Origin: Acidobacteriota bacterium
GTDB taxonomy: Bacteria > Acidobacteriota > Thermoanaerobaculia > Multivoradales > JAGPDF01
Assembly: GCA_014584695.1 (NCBI GenBank)
Contig: JACTMI010000034.1
Coordinates: 1-64,000, forward strand
DNA length: 64,000 nucleotides
Direction of reading: 5' to 3'
Shown in pieces: positions 26,813 to 36,176 of this stretch; within the stretch, counting starts at the first letter, position 1; every line of letters starts with the position of its first letter. The notes below the pieces were generated by a model. That model was not told the origin of the DNA and made no database searches. It saw nothing but the letters and a program-made list of their open reading frames with translations. Made by a program: the position numbers and the translations under genes.

Positions 26813-27603
26813 CCCCGACCGGAGCGGCATTCGAACCGCCGTCCGCGCCGGGCGGCCCCGCGCTCTCGGTCGTGGTGCCGCTCTACGACGAAGAAGAGAA
26901 CCTCCCCGAGCTCGACCGCGAGATCCGCACCGCGCTGGCACCGCTCGGCCTGGCCTACGAGGTGATCTACGTCGACGACGGCTCGCGCGACGGCAGCCTC
27001 GAGGTGCTCCGCGGCTTGGCCGCGAGCGACCCGCGGCTGCGCGTCCTGCGCCACCGCCACAACGCCGGGCAGTCGGCCGCGCTCGCCGCCGGCTTCCGCG
27101 CCGCCCGCGGCGAGCTGGTGGCGACCCTCGACGCCGACCTCCAGAACGATCCGGCCGATCTGCCCCGCCTGCTGGCGAAGCTCGAGGAGGGCTTCGACCT
27201 GGTCTCCGGCGTGCGGACCGAGCGGCGGGACAGCTGGGTGCGCCGGGTCTCCTCGCGCATCGCCAACGCGGTGCGCAACTGGGCGACCGCGGAGTCGATC
27301 ACCGACGTCGGCTGCTCGCTCAAGATCTACCGCGCGCGCCACCTGCGCCACCTGCCGCTGTTTTCGGGCATGCACCGGTTCCTGCCCACGCTGGCGCGCT
27401 GGAACGGGGCGACACGGGTCGCCGAGCTCGCCGTCCACCACCGGCCGCGCCGCTTCGGCGTCGCCAAGTACGGCATCGGCAACCGGCTCTTCCGCGCGCT
27501 CGCCGATCTCTTCGCCGTGCGCTGGATGCGGAGCCGCTGGATCGACCCGGCCAACGCCGAGGAGGTCGAAGTCACGCACCGCACGGGAGGTGCCGGCCGA
27601 TGA
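26809..27603 (+). CDS. Glycosyltransferase family 2 (DPM1/ArnC-like, soluble)
   Basis: 264-residue GT-A enzyme. SVVVPLYDEEENLPELDREI opens the fold, VIYVDDGSRDGS binds the nucleotide, and LDADLQNDP supplies the metal-binding DxD. These features match polyprenyl-phosphate hexose synthases (dolichol-phosphate mannose synthase/ArnC types), but the C-terminal transmembrane helices of ArnC/GtrB are missing, so it resembles the short soluble class. It would make a polyprenyl-phosphate sugar, the donor for the GT39 enzyme encoded next. GTG at 26809 overlaps the rfbF stop; an in-frame GTG at 26797 is an alternative. The stop overlaps the next ATG (ATGA). Confidence 0.9.
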   Translation: MTPTGAAFEPPSAPGGPALSVVVPLYDEEENLPELDREIRTALAPLGLAYEVIYVDDGSRDGSLEVLRGLAASDPRLRVLRHRHNAGQSAALAAGFRAARGELVATLDADLQNDPADLPRLLAKLEEGFDLVSGVRTERRDSWVRRVSSRIANAVRNWATAESITDVGCSLKIYRARHLRHLPLFSGMHRFLPTLARWNGATRVAELAVHHRPRRFGVAKYGIGNRLFRALADLFAVRWMRSRWIDPANAEEVEVTHRTGGAGR

Positions 27604-29231
27604 GCTGGGCCGAGCGGATCCTGCTGCTGCTGCTCGGCCTCGTCCTCTTCCTGCCCGGCCTCGGCGCGCGCGATCTCTGGAACCCGGACGAGCCGCGCTA
27701 CGCCGTGGTGGCGCGCGAGATGCTCGAGCGCGGCGACTGGCTGGTACCGCACCTGAACGACCGCCTCTACGCGGAGAAGCCGCCGCTCCACTTCTGGTCG
27801 ATCGCGGCGCTGTCGAAGCTCGCCGGTGGCGTCAGCGAGGTGACCGCCCGTCTCCCCTCGGTCTTGGCCGCGGTGCTGGCGCTCTTCTTCCTTTTCGACC
27901 TCTCCCGCCGGCTGTTCGATCGCGAGGTCGCCTGGACCGCGGTCCTGGTCTTCACGACCGCCGCGAAGATCCTCTGGCAGGGGCGGATCGGCCAGATCGA
28001 CATGACGCTGGTCGCGCTGGTGACGCTGGCGATGGCCTGCTTCGTGCGCGGCCTGACCGAGCGGCGCGACGGGTACTTCCGGCTCTTCTTCGTCGCCGCC
28101 GGGCTGGCGACGCTCGCCAAGGGACCGGTCGGCCTGCTGCCGCCGCTGCTGGCGATCGTGGCCTTCGCGCTCGCGACCGGCCGCCGCGACCTCCTGGGCC
28201 GGATGCGGATCCCGACCGGTCTCGCGCTCTGGGCGGCGATCGTCCTCGCCTGGCTCGCGCCGGCGATCCTCTCGGCGGGGCGCGAGTACTTCGACATCAT
28301 CGTCCTGCGCCAGAACCTCACCCGTTATGCCGAGCCGTGGCATCACCAGCAGCCCTGGTACTACTACCTCGAGGTGATCCCGGCGGACTTCTTCCCCTGG
28401 TCGTTCTTCCTGCCGGGGGCGATCTGGATCGGCTGGCGGCGGTTTGTCGCCGAAGAGCGGCGCGGCTACGCCTTCGCCCTCGCCTGGGCGTTCGTGACCC
28501 TGCTCTTCTTCAGCTTCTCGCCCGGCAAGCGAACCGTCTACGTCCTCACGATGTACCCGGCGCTCGCGCTGCTGGTCGCGGCCTCTTTCGTGGAGATCCG
28601 GCGCAGCTGGCCGCGCCTGCGCGGCTGGCTAGTCGTGCCGGCGGCCGTCCTCGCGCTGCTGGCGACGCTCGTGCCGGCGGCCGGTTTCTACCTCGTCCGC
28701 TTCCGGCCCGAGCGAATCTCCCGCCGCCTCGCCGAGCTCGAGCCGCTCGGCCCCGGCGTGTTGCCGCTCCTGCTCCTCTTCGGCATCGGGCTCTCGGTCG
28801 CCGCGCTCGCGGCGCTGCTCGGCGCGCTGCGCGGCTCGACGCGGCGGGTGACCGGCGCGCTCGCCACCGGCATGGGCGCGGTCGCGGTCGCCGCCGCCGT
28901 GCTGCTGCTGCCCCGCTTCGACGCGGTCAAGTCCGCGCGGCCGCTCGCCGAGCATCTGGTCGAAATCGCCGCTCCGGACGAGCCCTACGCCATCTGGCCA
29001 CGTCTCGACCCGACCTTCGTCTTCTACTCCCACCGGTTCGCGGTCGAGCTGCGCGGCGAGGAGCATTTGCGCGCCTTCGTCGCCGGCCCCGGCCGCGTCT
29101 GGCTCCTCGCCGAGCGCGACGACTGGGCCCGCCTCGCCCCGCCCCTCCCCCTGGTCGAAATCGACCGCGACCCCGACCTCCGGGAAGGCTACCTCCTCCT
29201 CACCCGGCCGGAGCCTGCCCCCGCGCCTTGA
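27600..29231 (+). CDS. ArnT-like glycosyltransferase family 39 membrane protein
   Basis: 543-residue polytopic inner-membrane enzyme. After helix 1, LWNPDEPRYAVVAREMLERG gives the catalytic DE region of GT39/GT83 (PMT/ArnT) proteins. KPPLHFWSIA and ILWQGRIGQIDM are further ArnT-like motifs. About 11 helices fill residues 5-430 and a short periplasmic domain closes the protein (YAIWPRLDPTFVFYS). It transfers a sugar from a polyprenyl-phosphate donor, probably made by the preceding GT2, to a periplasmic acceptor such as lipid A or a glycan. It is coupled to the GT2 (ATGA) and is the last gene of the operon. The 3' end, from the stop region on, was copied in the 206-bp tandem duplication that follows. 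Confidence 0.88.
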   Translation: MSWAERILLLLLGLVLFLPGLGARDLWNPDEPRYAVVAREMLERGDWLVPHLNDRLYAEKPPLHFWSIAALSKLAGGVSEVTARLPSVLAAVLALFFLFDLSRRLFDREVAWTAVLVFTTAAKILWQGRIGQIDMTLVALVTLAMACFVRGLTERRDGYFRLFFVAAGLATLAKGPVGLLPPLLAIVAFALATGRRDLLGRMRIPTGLALWAAIVLAWLAPAILSAGREYFDIIVLRQNLTRYAEPWHHQQPWYYYLEVIPADFFPWSFFLPGAIWIGWRRFVAEERRGYAFALAWAFVTLLFFSFSPGKRTVYVLTMYPALALLVAASFVEIRRSWPRLRGWLVVPAAVLALLATLVPAAGFYLVRFRPERISRRLAELEPLGPGVLPLLLLFGIGLSVAALAALLGALRGSTRRVTGALATGMGAVAVAAAVLLLPRFDAVKSARPLAEHLVEIAAPDEPYAIWPRLDPTFVFYSHRFAVELRGEEHLRAFVAGPGRVWLLAERDDWARLAPPLPLVEIDRDPDLREGYLLLTRPEPAPAP

Positions 29232-29615
29232 ACGCCGGCCCGGCAGGCTCGACAGCCTCCGGTCTCCCGCCGCGCGGATGGGCAGTACCAGAGAAAAGCA
29301 AGAGCGTTCTGTTGAAGGGGTCGGTGGGCTGGTGCTGGTGTGTTCGCCGAGACGTCCGCGGCGACCGTCAGCACGCCGACGCCGCCGACGCCGCCAGCTC
29401 CGGCACCAGCTCCAGCTCCCCTGCCTCCGCGCCTTGAAGGCCGGGCCCGCTGGGCTGACGACCTCCGGTCGCCGGGCGCGCGGCCGGGCGGAAGCAGAGA
29501 GAAGCAAAAGCGTTCTGTTGAAGGGGTCGGTGGCCTGGCGCGGGTGGGTCCGCCGCCACGTCCGCGGCGGCCGTCAGCACGCCAGCGCCACCGGCGCCGC
29601 CAGCTCCGGCTAGCT
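29225..29615. repeat. 206-bp tandem duplication containing the 3' end of the ArnT-like gene
   Basis: Copy 1 (29225-29430) and partial copy 2 (29431 to about 29615) align at a constant offset of 206 bp. GCCTTGA is at 29225 and 29431, CGTTCTGTTG at 29305 and 29511, and GTCAGCAC at 29367 and 29573. The first copy starts within the last codons and stop of the ArnT-like gene. Copies differ by many substitutions, so the event is not recent. No plausible protein is encoded on either strand. Confidence 0.85.
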
Positions 29616-29842: not shown

Positions 29843-30712
29843 TCAGTCGTCGTCGGGGCGCTTCCAGGTGGTGACGCTGTCGTCGAAGGCGGGCAGGCGG
29901 AGGTCCTCGCCGCGGGCGGCGCGGATGCGGTACTCCCAGAGGCGGGCGTACTTCAACAAGACGCCGAAAGCCTGGAGGGTGCAGACGACGAAGCCGTGCG
30001 TGCCGTCGAGGAAGCCGCGCTGGACGACGTAGGTGCGCAGGAAGCGCCAGAGCGGACGCAGCGCGAGCTCGACGAAGCCCGAGCGGCGGCCGTCGCGGAA
30101 TGCCTGGGCGGCCCCCCACTCGGCGTAGTTCAGGAACTTCGGAAAGTACTGGTCGAACGTGCGGAAGGTGTAGTGGAGGAAGGGGTGCGCGAGCACCGGC
30201 ACCGGCCCCTCGATCTCGAGGTCGGCGTGGACCCGGCGGTTCGGGTAGCGCCCCTTGTCGCGCCGGAACAGCCGCACCACCTTGTCCGTCGACCAGCCGG
30301 AGTGGCGGATCACCTTGTCGATGAAGACGTTCTCGCGCCGGATGTAGTAGCCGTTGACCGCCGGTCGGGTGGCGAGCACGGTCAGAATCTCGCGCGCCAG
30401 GGGCTCCGGCACCCGCTCGTCCGCGTCGATGATCAGCACCCAGTCGTGCTGGACCCGGTCGATCGCCCAGTTCTTCTGCGCCGCGGAGCCGAAATACTCG
30501 CGCTGCATCACCGTCACCGGATAGCGCTTCGCACCCTCGACCGTGCGGTCGGTCGAGAACGAGTCGACCAGCAGGATCTCGTCGGCCCACAGCACCGACT
30601 CGATGCACTCGGCGACGTTGACCTCCTCGTTGAAGGTGGTGATGATCACCGAGACGGCTTGCCGGCCCGGCGCGGCGCGCAGCGCTTCGAGGGTCGAGGT
30701 CTTGGCGGCCAC
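29843..30712 (-). CDS. Glycosyltransferase family 2 (WaaE/KdtX-like)
   Basis: 289-residue GT-A enzyme with SVIITTFNEEVNVAECIESV at the N-terminus, LLVDSFSTDRTVE as the nucleotide-binding strand, and VLIIDADERVPE holding the metal-binding acid residues. The following GYYIRRENVFIDKVIRHSGW and RLFRRDKGRYPNRRVHADLE are typical of the WaaE/KdtX group, which add glucose to the lipopolysaccharide inner core. The C-terminal part (YFPKFLNYAEWGA, FLDGTHGFVVCTLQAFGV) is amphipathic and suggests membrane association. It starts 4 nt after ymdB and belongs to the rny-ymdB transcript, an odd pairing of RNA turnover and envelope genes. Confidence 0.88.
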   Translation of the reverse strand: MAAKTSTLEALRAAPGRQAVSVIITTFNEEVNVAECIESVLWADEILLVDSFSTDRTVEGAKRYPVTVMQREYFGSAAQKNWAIDRVQHDWVLIIDADERVPEPLAREILTVLATRPAVNGYYIRRENVFIDKVIRHSGWSTDKVVRLFRRDKGRYPNRRVHADLEIEGPVPVLAHPFLHYTFRTFDQYFPKFLNYAEWGAAQAFRDGRRSGFVELALRPLWRFLRTYVVQRGFLDGTHGFVVCTLQAFGVLLKYARLWEYRIRAARGEDLRLPAFDDSVTTWKRPDDD

Positions 30713-30716
30713 GGGG

Positions 30717-31505
30717 TCACACCTCCCGGTCGGGAATCAGCAGGCGCTCGATGGCGCGCGCGCGGCCGGTCGACTCGTCGACGTCGATCACCGCCGCGGC
30801 CAGCCGGACGTCGCGCTTGGCCACCTCGAAAGTCGACGGCGTCTGCAGCAGGAAGCGCTGCAGCACCCGGTCGGCGCGGAAGCCGATCACGCCCTCGTAC
30901 GGTCCGGTCATGCCGGCGTCGGTCAGGAAGGCCGTGCCGCCCGGCAGCACCCGTTCGTCGGCGGTCGGCACGTGGGTGTGCGTCCCCACCACCGCCGAGA
31001 CGCGGCCGTCGAGGTAGACGCCGAGCGCCTGCTTCTCGCTCGTCGCCTCGGCGTGGAAGTCGACGAAGATCACCTTGGCGCGCCCGCCGATCTCGGCCAG
31101 CAAGCGGTCGGCGGCGGCGAAGGGCGAGTCGACGTTCCTCAGGAAGACCTGGCCTTCCAGGTTCACCGTCGCCACCGGCACCCCCGCGGCGGTTTCGCCC
31201 AGGTGGAGGCCGCGGCCGGGATTGCCGGCCGGGTAGTTGTCCGGCCGCAGCAGCCGCGGCTCGCGCTCGAGCAGGTCCGCGACCTCCTTCTTGTCCCAGA
31301 TGTGGTTGCCGGAGGTCAGGCAATGGATCGGCAGCTCGTCGAGCTCCTCGAGCACGTCCGGGGTGACGCCGAAACCGCCCGCGGCGTTCTCGACGTTGAC
31401 GATCACGTAGTCGGCGCGGTGCTCGTCGACCAGGCGCGGCAGCAGCCGGCCGAGCGCCTTGCGCCCGGGCTTGCCGATCACGTCGCCGACGAACAGGATC
31501 TTCAC
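30717..31505 (-). CDS. ymdB: YmdB-type metallophosphoesterase (2',3'-cyclic nucleotide phosphodiesterase)
   Basis: 262 residues. Calcineurin-like phosphoesterase of the YmdB/TIGR00282 family; the Bacillus protein hydrolyses 2',3'-cAMP and affects development. Metal ligands are visible in [36 protein letters not shown] and [13 protein letters not shown]. The GTG at 31505 overlaps the rny stop (GTGA). The rny-ymdB pairing is conserved in many phyla and ties the product to RNA turnover. Cytoplasmic, with no signal peptide. Confidence 0.95.
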
Positions 31506-33070
31506 TTCGCGTACTCGACCGCGCGCGTCTCGCGGATCACGGTGACGCGGATCTGCCCCGGATAGGTCAGCTCCGCCTCGATCTTGCGCGCCACCTCCTT
31601 CGACAGCCAGAGCGCCTCCTCGTCGGAGAGCTTGCCGCTGTCGACGATGATCCGCACCTCGCGGCCGGCTTGGATGGCGAAGCTCTTCTGCACCCCCTTG
31701 AAGGCGCCGGCGATCTCCTCGAGCTTCTGCAGCCGCTGCACGTAGCTCTCGAGCACCTCGCGGCGGGCGCCCGGCCGGGCGGCGGAGAGCGCGTCGGAGG
31801 CGGTCACCAGCACCGCCTCGACCGAGCGCGGATCGTAGTCGCCATGGTGGCAGGCCATGGCGTGGACCACCTCCTCCGACTCGCCGTACTTGCGCAGCAG
31901 CTCGATGCCGAGCTCGAGGTGGGTGCCGTCGACCTCGCGGTCGATCGCCTTGCCGATGTCGTGCAGCAGGCCCGCGCGCTTGGCGACCGCGACGTTGACC
32001 TTGAGCTCGCCGGCCATGGCGGCGGCCAGGAAAGCCACCTCCTTGGAGTGCTGGAGCACGTTCTGGCCGTAGCTGTAGCGGTAGCGGAGCCGGCCGAGCA
32101 GCTTGACCAGCTCCGGATGCATGCCGGGGATCTTGAGCTCGAGCAGGGCGGCGTCGCCGTCCTGCTGGATCCGCTGCTCGAACTCCGCCTTGACCTTCTC
32201 GACCACTTCCTCGATGCGCGCGGGGTGGATCCGCCCGTCGGCGATCAGCCGCTCGAGCGCCACCCGCGCGATCTCGCGCCGGAAGGGGTCGAAGCCGGAG
32301 AGGATCACCGCTTCCGGCGTGTCGTCGACGATCAGGTCGACGCCGGTCGCCATCTCCAGGGCGCGGATGTTGCGCCCCTCGCGGCCGATGATGCGGCCCT
32401 TCATCTCGTCGCTCGGCAGCTCGACCACCGAGACCGTGGTTTCCGAGACGTAGTCGGAGGCCAGGCGCTGCACCGCCAGCCCCATCAGCCACTGCGCCTT
32501 GCGACTGCCCTGCTCGCGCGCCTCGTCCTCGATCCGCTTGACGATGTGGGCGGCCTCGATCTTGGCTTCGTTCTCGAGCGAGCGGACCAGCTCCTCCTTG
32601 GCCTGCTGCGCGGTCAGCCCGGCGACCTGCTCGAGCCGCTGGCGGGCCTCGGCGCCGAGCCGCTCGATCTCGCGCTCGCGCTCCTCGGCGGCGCGCTCGC
32701 GGCCGTCGACCGCCTTCTCGCGCCCGCCCAACTCGCGGTCGCGCTGGTCCTGCTGCTCCTGGCGCTTGTCGAGCGCGTCCTCTTTCTGGGTCAGCCGCCG
32801 CTCGATCGCCTCGATCTCCGAGCGGCGCTTGCGCGAGGCGGTTTCGAACTCGCCGCGCGCCTGGAGCAGCTTTTCCTTGGCTGCGAGGTCGGCCTCGCGC
32901 ACCTTCGTCTCGGCTTCGCGGCGCGCCTCCTCGAGCACCCGCTCGGCTTGGCGGCGGGCCTCGACGACGGTGTCCCGCGCGGCGCGCCGGGTCTGCGCCC
33001 AGGCGAAGCCCAGGGCGGCCAGCGCCAGCACGAGTCCGCCGGCGATCCACAAGAGAGAAGTCATACCCAC
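31502..33070 (-). CDS. rny: Ribonuclease Y
   Basis: 522-residue membrane-anchored endoribonuclease that starts bulk mRNA decay. An N-terminal transmembrane helix (about 5-25) is followed by a long charged coiled coil (about 30-200) and a KH domain (about 210-275, with [15 protein letters not shown]). The HD phosphodiesterase domain comes next ([18 protein letters not shown] with the HD pair; [11 protein letters not shown] further on). The order and length match RNase Y exactly. The ATG at 33070 has a GGGGGTG-like site upstream. It lies after zapA and the 6S RNA candidate on the same strand. Confidence 0.97.
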
Positions 33071-33156
33071 ACCCCCGGGACGAGGGGGGAGGCGAGAAGG
33101 CCGGGCGCCGGAAGGTGTGCGGACACCCCCCGAGACGGCTGTGAGCGACGCGGCGC

Positions 33157-33331
33157 CTAGAACCTGAAGCGCGTCAGGTGGGTGTCCTCATGAGCGGCCC
33201 TCAGCGTCCCGGTCGAAGCCGGGCAGGCACAGACCGCGCGGATGTTGGACTCCCGGGTAACGAATGTTGGTTCTACGGTGCGTCGGCTCATCAGCAACCG
33301 CTCAGGGGGTGCCGCAACTCCTGGATTCTCT
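33157..33331 (-). ncRNA. ssrS: 6S RNA candidate
   Basis: On the minus strand the segment has the elements of 6S RNA. A closing stem pairs AGAATCCAGGAGTTGC (5' side) with GCGCTTCAGGTTCT (3' side). A 5' CCCCCTGAGCGG element and a 3' GAGGACACCCACCTG element correspond to conserved bubble-flanking motifs of known 6S RNAs. An apical hairpin, CCCGGCTTCGACCGGG, lies between them. It sits directly downstream of zapA, the classic position of ssrS in Proteobacteria. 6S RNA binds the housekeeping RNA polymerase holoenzyme and represses transcription in stationary phase. Ends are approximate; no covariance model was run. Confidence 0.75.
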
Positions 33332-33362
33332 CGGCCTCGCCGACCGCTGGCCGCCGTCCCGT

Positions 33363-33659
33363 TCACGTCAGGACTCCGGTCAGACGCTCGGCGAGCGCCG
33401 TCACCCGTGTCTCGATCTCGCCCCGTTCCCCTTCGAAGTGCTGCCGGTTCCGGGACAATTCGTCGGCCAAGTTGAGCGCCACCAGGATGGCGAGCCGGGA
33501 CGGATCCACCTGGTGCAGGTGTCCGGCCAGCTCCCGCATCCGGCGATCGACCTCGCCGGCGAGCTCCGTCAAGTGTTCCGGATCCTGGCTGCTCCGCAAG
33601 ACGTAGGTCGCACCGAAAATCTCGACTTCCTGCGCGGTGACGACCTCGTTGTCGCTCAT
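33363..33659 (-). CDS. zapA: Cell division protein ZapA
   Basis: 98-residue FtsZ-bundling protein. The fold is visible as an N-terminal beta region (VEIFGATYVLRSSQDPEHL) and a helix with DPSRLAILVALNLADELSR. A C-terminal coiled coil follows (EGERGEIETRVTALAERL). The ATG at 33659 was chosen over an upstream frame because it gives the normal length and AAGGAG lies upstream. The neighbours pheT, a ZapB-like gene and the 6S RNA candidate repeat an arrangement known from other bacteria (zapA-ssrS). Confidence 0.92.
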   Translation of the reverse strand: MSDNEVVTAQEVEIFGATYVLRSSQDPEHLTELAGEVDRRMRELAGHLHQVDPSRLAILVALNLADELSRNRQHFEGERGEIETRVTALAERLTGVLT

Positions 33660-33726: not shown

Positions 33727-33960
33727 TCACCCGCGCGGGGCGAGCGCTTCGAGCCGCCCGACCAGGGCCTCGACGCGGCGCCGGATCTCGTCGCGGTCCT
33801 TGCGCCAGGCGGCGGCCCCGTCCCCGCGCGCCCCGTTGCGCGCGGTCTCGAGCTCGGCCACGCGGCGTTCGAGCCGCGCGTTCTCCTCGGTCAGGGCTTC
33901 GATCCGTGCGATCGCCGCGGCGACTCGCGCTTCGAGTGGCTCCAGGAACTCCAGGCTCAT
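33727..33960 (-). CDS. ZapB-like small coiled-coil protein
   Basis: 77-residue protein that is almost entirely helical with heptad spacing (LEFLEPLEARVAAAIARIE, ALTEENARLERRVAELE). It starts within the pheT stop (ATGA) and is followed 67 nt later by zapA. Size, coiled coil and position match the ZapB-like proteins encoded next to zapA in many genomes, where they link the Z-ring to chromosome or pole factors. Sequence similarity in such short coiled coils is weak, so the call rests mainly on context. Confidence 0.75.
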   Translation of the reverse strand: MSLEFLEPLEARVAAAIARIEALTEENARLERRVAELETARNGARGDGAAAWRKDRDEIRRRVEALVGRLEALAPRG

Positions 33961-36176
33961 CGCTCCCCCTCCCGGGCGACACCGAAGCGCCGCTCCAGCT
34001 CGGCCGCGAGAGCGCTCTGACGGGCGTTGACCTCGTCCTGGGTCAGCGTGCGCTCCCCGGCGTTGTATTCGAAGGTGATCGTGGTGGCGACGGCGCCCGC
34101 GGGCACGCCGGCACCGCGGTAGCGCTCCTTGAGCGCGAAGCCGGCCAGATACTCGACGCCGAAGCCGCGGATCGCCGACTCCAGGTCGGACCAGGAGAGC
34201 GACTCCGGGTGCGTCAGCGTCAGGTCGGCGGCCACCCCCGGGACCCGCGGCGGGGCCACCACCGGGCGGCTCGGGCCCTGGAGCGGAAAGCGGTCGAGCC
34301 GCACCTCGCCGGCGAAGAGCGCGAACGGCGTCTCGGCGCCGGCGACTCTGCCGAACCAGCCGGCCAGCTCGCCGCTGGCGTCGCGCCACTCGGCGCCGGT
34401 GCCGCTCAAGACCCCGGCCAGCTCCGCCGGCTGGGCGCGCCAACCCGCCTCCCCGAGCTGCGCGAACAGCGCTTCGAGGAGGCCCTTGAAACCCATCAGA
34501 TCGAGCTCGCCGTGGCGATCCCACGGGCCACCGAAGCTCCCCCCGGCGACCGCGGCGAGCGCCTCGATCTCCGCCCCCTCGCCACCGGGGAAGAGGTGCC
34601 CGACCTCGAACAGGCGCACCCCCGCGGCGCCCCGGCGGCCGTTCGCCTCCGCGGCCTCGACCAGGTTCGGCACCAGCGATCGGCGCAGCACCGCGTAGCG
34701 CTCCGAGAGCGGGTTGGCGAGCGCGAGCGGCGGCCCCGAGCGGGCGAGAGCGGGGAAACGCTCGTCGGCCGCGGCGGCGTGGAAGGCGAAGTGGATCCCC
34801 TCGGCGAAGCCGAGCGCCGCGCACGCGCTCTGGGCGCGGCCCCGCAGGTCGTGCACCGGGTTGGCGCCGGCGTCGACCCCGACCAGCGCCGGCAGCGTCG
34901 AGGGCACGCGATCCAGGCCGGCGTGCCGCAACAGCTCCTCGAACAGGTCTTGGGCGTAGGCCGTGGGCCGCGCTGGATCGCCGCCCCGGCGGGGCTCGAA
35001 GTCCACCGCGCGAAAACTCGGCACGGCGCCGGTCCAGACTCGACCGGCGCCCCGCTCCGGCGCGAACCCGAGGCCGGCCAGAATGCGCTCGATCTCGCCG
35101 TCGTCGAACGGCATGCCGACGAAGCGCTCGAGCGCCGCGGCCTCGACCCGCCAGGCGACCGCCGGCGGCCGCCGGGCGATCGCGTCGACCGCGAGCTCCT
35201 CGACGCTGCCACCCGCGACCTCGACGATCAACGCCACGCAGCGCCGTGAAGCCTCGTCGCAGACGGCGAAGTCGGCGCCGCGCTCGAAGCGGTGCGAAGC
35301 GTCGGTGTGCAGCCCGAGCCGCTTGGCGCCGACCCGGATCCGCTTGCGCTCGAAGTGAGCGCTTTCGAGCAGCAGGTCGACGGTCGCGCCGGTCACCTCG
35401 GTGGCGAGCCCCCCCATGACGCCGGCGAGCGCCACCGCCCGCTCGCGATCCGCGATGACCAGGATCTCCGGGTCGAGCTCCCGCTCCTTGCCGTCGAGCG
35501 TCGTCAGCCGCTCGCCCGGGCGCGCGCGGCGGACGCGGATCTCGCCTCCGGGAATCGTGGCGAGATCGAAGGCGTGCAGGGGCTGCCCCAACTCCCAGAG
35601 GACGAAGTTCGTGGCGTCGACGACGTTGTTGATCGAGCGCTGTCCGATCGCCTCGAGCCGCGCTCTCAGCCAGTCGGGCGAGGGGCCCACCTTCACCCCT
35701 CGAATCACCCTGGCGACGTACCGCGGGCAGCCCTCGGCGTCCTCGAGAATCACGGACCCTGTACTTCCATCGGAAGAAGAGCTGCCATAGAAGGGGGTCG
35801 ACGGACGCATCAGCGGCTGGCCGAGCGCGACCGCCAGCTCGCGCGCGACGCCGAAGTGACACATGCAGTCGGGCCGATTGGAGGTGACGTCGATGTCGAG
35901 AACGTAGTCCACCCCGCCCGCACCCACATCCGAGCCGGCACCCACCCCTGCACCGGCACCTGCACCCGAGCCCAGCGGCCGCTCCGCCATCCCCTCTACC
36001 GCCAAGCCCACAGCAGTGAGCTTGTTCCCTATCTGGGAGCTTTTCTCTCTTTCTTCTTCTTCCAGGTCTCCGCCGCGGCCGCTCGCCACGGCGAAGCGGT
36101 GCCGGCCGGCGGCGTCCTTCTCCAGCCGGAACGGCAGGTCGACGTAATCCGCGAGCCAGGCGAGGGAGAACTCCAC
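33957..36176 (-). CDS. pheT: Phenylalanine-tRNA ligase beta subunit, lacking the EMAP-type OB domain
   Basis: 739-residue beta chain of the (alpha-beta)2 PheRS. It contains B1 (MEFSLAWLADYVDLP), the B3/B4 editing domain (YVLDIDVTSNRPDC, NFVLWELGQPLHAFD), a B5 domain (about 335-400), the catalytic-like B6/B7 core and a C-terminal FDX-anticodon-binding domain (about 640-739). Between B1 and the editing domain the usual EMAP/OB tRNA-binding module is missing; a Gly/Ala linker (about 69-88, GAGAGAGVGAGS) takes its place. The chain remains long because of insertions elsewhere, including an acidic stretch (DLEEEEREKSS). It starts 4 nt after pheS and its stop overlaps the next ATG. Confidence 0.95.
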   Translation of the reverse strand: MEFSLAWLADYVDLPFRLEKDAAGRHRFAVASGRGGDLEEEEREKSSQIGNKLTAVGLAVEGMAERPLGSGAGAGAGVGAGSDVGAGGVDYVLDIDVTSNRPDCMCHFGVARELAVALGQPLMRPSTPFYGSSSSDGSTGSVILEDAEGCPRYVARVIRGVKVGPSPDWLRARLEAIGQRSINNVVDATNFVLWELGQPLHAFDLATIPGGEIRVRRARPGERLTTLDGKERELDPEILVIADRERAVALAGVMGGLATEVTGATVDLLLESAHFERKRIRVGAKRLGLHTDASHRFERGADFAVCDEASRRCVALIVEVAGGSVEELAVDAIARRPPAVAWRVEAAALERFVGMPFDDGEIERILAGLGFAPERGAGRVWTGAVPSFRAVDFEPRRGGDPARPTAYAQDLFEELLRHAGLDRVPSTLPALVGVDAGANPVHDLRGRAQSACAALGFAEGIHFAFHAAAADERFPALARSGPPLALANPLSERYAVLRRSLVPNLVEAAEANGRRGAAGVRLFEVGHLFPGGEGAEIEALAAVAGGSFGGPWDRHGELDLMGFKGLLEALFAQLGEAGWRAQPAELAGVLSGTGAEWRDASGELAGWFGRVAGAETPFALFAGEVRLDRFPLQGPSRPVVAPPRVPGVAADLTLTHPESLSWSDLESAIRGFGVEYLAGFALKERYRGAGVPAGAVATTITFEYNAGERTLTQDEVNARQSALAAELERRFGVAREGER

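Follow-up and report, generated by a model that had tools for sequence, protein, structure and literature searches.

The gap between zapA and rny on the minus strand of an Acidobacteriota contig contains a canonical 6S RNA gene (ssrS), a reading to which we give a probability of about 0.96. 6S RNA is a small RNA that in many bacteria restrains the main RNA polymerase while growth is slow. It was studied here within a window, meaning the whole analysed stretch of 64,000 nucleotides. The RNA itself and its position will hold little surprise for a specialist, and together they make an ordinary but sound find; what holds mild interest is how widely the zapB-zapA-6S-rny-ymdB gene order occurs.

A search of the entire window with all 4227 Rfam families gave three matches above cut-off, two of them tRNAs and the third a 6S RNA. 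The 6S match (RF00013) scores 61.0 bits against a gathering cut-off of 46.4 (E 1.3e-9) and spans positions 1-187 of the 187-position model. A 6S candidate between zapA and rny had been proposed from the sequence alone, with this very covariance-model search set beforehand as the refuting test; the search was positive over the full model, and covariation in relatives lends independent support. 6S-flavo (RF01685) and Ms1 RNA are related polymerase-binding RNAs in other phyla (see also PMC9130861); neither matched in the window, where the match is to RF00013.

Many relatives exceed the score of 61, the phylum reaching as high as 117, a shortfall that might be expected of a decayed 6S copy or pseudogene. 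However, this is the only 6S match in the genome (4.35 Mb in 48 contigs, 97.8% complete), all of its helices are intact, and it scores 157 bits with R1, a covariance model made from 25 sequences of the same order only, the window being one of those 25. Decay is therefore a most improbable explanation, and a canonical 6S gene is the preferred reading.

The extent of the gene needed correction. The sequence-only reading had placed it at 33157-33331, which adds 20 nt of leader and omits the last 34 nt, and with them all of the closing stem's 3' strand; the true extent is 33123-33311. Its closing stem and apical hairpin are both present. Of the two motifs that it cited, GGACACCCACCTG is indeed the conserved 3' element (33187-33175), whereas CCCCCTGAG (33309-33301) was misassigned: it lies within the 5' strand of the closing stem, pairs with CTCGGGGGGTG at the 3' end, and is not the pRNA-template element. 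In the Rfam alignment, it is GTAGAACCAAC (33276-33266) that corresponds to the pRNA template of E. coli. The features of the locus are collected in Table 1.

Table 1. Genes, helices and predicted elements at the 6S locus (window coordinates)
Feature	Coordinates	Strand	Basis
pheT	33957..36176	-	PF03483, PF17759 and PF03147 above cut-off
zapB-family coiled-coil gene, start overlaps pheT stop	33727..33960	-	PF06005 ZapB, 56.6 bits (cut-off 31.5)
zapA	33363..33659	-	PF05164, 65.4 bits
Weak -10-like hexamer GAGAAT, 13 nt upstream of 6S 5' end	33325..33330	-	inference
6S RNA gene (ssrS), 189 nt, 5' end 33311	33123..33311	-	RF00013 full length and R1
Closing stem, 5' strand (nt 1-25), holds CCCCCTGAG	33287..33311	-	25-relative consensus; 8 of 22 pairs compensatory
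P2 (downstream helix bordering central bubble), 5' strand, TAGAACC	33269..33275	-	99.4% paired in the order
Predicted pRNA template, with C at 33266 as start site, giving 5'-GUUGGUUCUACGGU	33266..33279	-	homologous to the E. coli and B. subtilis start sites; C46 invariant in 25 of 25
Central bubble, 5' strand (nt 44-57)	33255..33268	-	unpaired in consensus structure
Upstream arm and apical hairpin (nt 58-132)	33180..33254	-	order and 70-row alignments
Central bubble, 3' strand (nt 133-147)	33165..33179	-	unpaired in consensus structure
Alternative 3'-bubble hairpin CCTGA-CGCGCT-TCAGG	33163..33178	-	93.9% paired, 70 sequences
P2, 3' strand, GGTTCTA	33158..33164	-	order and 70-row alignments
Closing stem, 3' strand (nt 165-188)	33124..33147	-	25-relative consensus, window mapping
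rny, RNase Y	31502..33070	-	TIGR03319, 714.9 bits
ymdB, metallophosphoesterase	30717..31505	-	TIGR00282, 276.1 bits (cut-off 254)

The 189-nt strand has a predicted folding energy of -96.8 kcal/mol (z = -5.0), and none of 200 shuffled sequences was as stable. The order alignment consists of 25 sequences including the window, the other members being 62-80% identical to it. Its consensus has 50 pairs, 18 of which are compensatory (both sides changed), and 97.0% of the cells are paired. The covariation score is 0.210. None of 500 shuffled alignments reached it (0.130), and sliding the partner strand gave 0.035-0.080. A 70-row alignment drawn from several phyla gives larger values, with 44 of the 50 pairs changed on both sides, five of the seven P2 pairs compensatory across phyla, and a score of 0.446, where shuffling gives 0.179 and sliding no more than 0.099; this alignment was fitted to the model and so leans towards it. 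The result is two helical arms, supported by covariation, around a central bubble that lies between the P2 helix and the apical arm, which is the architecture of the 6S family.

A 69-codon open reading frame (33157-33366, minus strand) overlaps the 6S gene and was considered as a small protein gene. The frame has no Pfam match, base changes in the region follow the pairing, and no frame is open across the 25 aligned relatives (the best is open in 8 of 25). With neither a family match nor a conserved frame, the small-protein reading was rejected as extremely improbable.

The central bubble also provides a candidate start site for product RNA. The cytosine at nucleotide 46 is invariant in all 25 order sequences and is homologous to U44 of E. 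coli and C40 of B. subtilis, where pRNA synthesis starts; from this the pRNA is predicted to be 5'-GUUGGUUCUACGGU. A GG at positions 4/5 or 5/6 has been described as conserved among pRNAs (PMC8414754), and the predicted product (GUUGGUUCUACGG) carries one at 4/5. The pRNA of B. subtilis 6S-1 is GUUCGGUCAAAACUA (PMC12005410), and it resembles the predicted window pRNA in starting with GUU (GUUCGGUC..., PMC12005410), just as the two RNAs share a C at the start site (predicted in the window) and a short 3'-bubble hairpin.

The hairpin on the 3' side of the bubble is an alternative to P2, since its two outer pairs involve the same GG that P2 uses. Across the 70 sequences its covariation score is 0.278, versus 0.112 shuffled and 0.010-0.120 slid, and its inner pair occurs as all four Watson-Crick types (G-C, A-U, C-G and U-A). 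In E. coli the corresponding hairpin, with 9 bp rather than the 5 bp of the window, arises once pRNA synthesis opens P2, while the shorter hairpin of B. subtilis 6S-1 is present already in the free RNA (PMC8876501). The window hairpin could act in either the E. coli-like or the B. subtilis-like manner, and by analogy it may promote release.

By homology with the known systems, the transcript would fold into a rod of closing stem, central bubble and apical arm, which would mimic an open promoter and capture the RNA polymerase holoenzyme containing the housekeeping sigma factor. The genome encodes an RpoD-type housekeeping sigma factor (TIGR02393, 402.5 bits). As growth slows, 6S would keep the holoenzyme off DNA promoters; a rise in NTPs would then allow polymerase to copy the RNA from the central bubble, starting opposite nucleotide 46 and generating the predicted pRNA. 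Release would presumably follow when the pRNA opens P2: the 3' strand, no longer paired, could then close the conserved CCUGA/UCAGG hairpin, and polymerase would be let go. We infer that the window 6S is expressed, binds polymerase, directs pRNA synthesis and is subject to growth-phase control.

In length, rod shape, central bubble and conserved blocks, the window RNA is like the E. coli-type 6S/SsrS (RF00013), which also shares the upstream zapB-zapA pair and a 3'-bubble hairpin with bases in common with P2. It differs in its phylum and in having rny downstream instead of ygfA. The minus-strand order is pheT-zapB-zapA-6S-rny-ymdB, so that both the zapA adjacency and the downstream rny-ymdB pair noticed by the sequence-only reading hold. 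The window shares with the beta/gamma-Proteobacteria a zapB-zapA pair directly ahead of ssrS and in its orientation, the context in those groups being zapB-zapA-ssrS-(ygfA)-EVE (PMC7641849); no ygfA or EVE gene lies downstream of the window 6S, and rny and ymdB are found instead. The ZapB-family gene shares 4 nt with the end of pheT and could easily be missed in annotation. Elsewhere in the window, two direct 191-nt copies (29214-29404 and 29420-29610; 83% identical, 206 nt from start to start) have a large ORF on the plus strand (27600-29231) to one side and an ORF on the minus strand (29843-30712) to the other.

The zapA stop codon is 51 nt from the 6S gene and the 6S 3' end is 52 nt from the rny start, and this close spacing suggests that zapB, zapA, 6S and rny are co-transcribed. 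A separate promoter just upstream of 6S is also possible. A scan of the locus found no sigma-70 consensus promoter or intrinsic terminator, although such a scan has little power when the genome is GC-rich and belongs to another phylum. A hand-made profile of 24 order relatives shows only AT-richness, from about -20 up to the first 6S nucleotide, and clear TTGAC...TAAGAT/TATAAT-like elements precede 6S in some other acidobacteria (for example at loci L114, L118, L138 and L140). The 6S RNA may thus be made from its own promoter or be cut from a zapB-zapA-6S-rny transcript.

The short distance to rny, and the conservation of the order with rny, would also suit a cis-regulatory structure in the rny mRNA, either a leader or a processing element, rather than a free 6S RNA. 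This is very unlikely: the fold and the conserved blocks correspond to RF00013 over its full length, and the structure is independent of rny, because other Acidobacteriota have 6S ahead of ymdB or away from any rny, and elsewhere rarA or ygfA separates 6S from rny. Canonical 6S RNA remains the preferred reading, and a more elaborate link between the two genes can be imagined in which 6S and RNase Y have been regulatory partners since ancient times, with RNase Y maturing 6S from the zapB-zapA-6S-rny transcript and the cut setting rny expression. Gene order alone suggests this, several 6S genes of the phylum are not adjacent to rny, and we regard the idea as a long shot.

The RNase Y genes closest to that of the window, in a named genome collection, belong to Thermoanaerobaculia and Acidobacteriota bins (67-75% identity; L032-L035), and the next, at less than 58%, are from other phyla. 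This one conserved protein points to Acidobacteriota, close to Thermoanaerobaculia, as the home of the genome. Rfam alone finds 6S in 50 of 59 genomes of the order and in 199 of 297 across the phylum. Loss of 6S in the nine remaining order genomes was considered and rejected for six of them, in which R1 recovers the gene, bringing the total to 56 of 59. The last three have no assembled site: in one rny is 59 nt from the contig start, in another it is fragmentary, and in the third no rny was found. R1 likewise recovers 6S in five of six same-class genomes scored as absent by Rfam. Ten acidobacterial genomes from other classes, all fairly complete, give no 6S match with either model (G059, G060, G068, G069, G075, G084, G089, G091, G093 and G097); they may have lost the gene or carry a strongly diverged one, for which R1 may be too narrow.

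The neighbourhood is uniform close to the window and looser further away. Every order locus from the first search (L001-L031), and all five same-class loci recovered with R1, have zapA upstream and rny downstream. Among the 30 best-scoring loci of the phylum, a biased choice, zapA is detected in 27, rny follows in 19, ymdB follows without rny in three, and neither is detected in eight. Acidobacteriota loci with 6S before ymdB, or with no rny nearby, include L112, L122, L132, L120, L125 and L128.

The same arrangement recurs through Acidobacteriota and extends to Desulfobacterota- and Nitrospirota-type contigs. Outside the phylum, rny has 6S upstream of it in contigs whose names include Deltaproteobacteria, Desulfobacteraceae, Nitrospirae and CSSED10-310, with R1 and Rfam agreeing on the places, and the ORF preceding 6S is ZapA by Pfam in all ten non-phylum contigs tested. 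The zapA-ssrS order is, as originally claimed, kept here outside the Proteobacteria, but this is not unusual, since zapA-6S-rny-ymdB is widespread. Three genomes reached through Desulfuromonadales/deltaproteobacterial contigs (G346, loci L146/L156; G348, L148/L155; G344, L149/L157) each have two above-cut-off Rfam 6S matches, with no zapA or rny detected beside them.

Some contigs carry additional genes between 6S and rny: ygfA (5-formyltetrahydrofolate cyclo-ligase) in L036 and L064, rarA/mgsA in L038 and L058, and both in L092. Alcanivorax and other Gammaproteobacteria have zapA-6S-ygfA (PMC9788540), ygfA is beside 6S in several groups (PMC9130861), and rarA is the gene next to 6S in B. subtilis and in lactic acid bacteria (PMC8414754); the window has zapA and rny in place of this Firmicutes neighbour. 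Because the contigs bearing rarA or ygfA link these known contexts, they suggest one old neighbourhood that was trimmed differently by lineage, a proposal made from gene order. A literature search that left out the principal accounts of 6S occurrence and synteny (Barrick 2005, Wehner 2014) found no paper naming zapB-zapA-6S-rny-ymdB for Acidobacteriota.

An acidobacterial lineage that has received little study now has a well-supported 6S RNA, and several phyla prove to share the neighbourhood of zapB-zapA-6S with rny-ymdB. The rarA/ygfA intermediates connect the proteobacterial zapA-ssrS-ygfA order with rarA, the Firmicutes neighbour of 6S. The zapA-rny gap is a place to seek diverged 6S genes, and a lineage-specific model recovered 6S in genomes that the fast standard search missed. 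If the pairing of 6S with RNase Y were true, it would tie together polymerase control, RNA decay and cell division.
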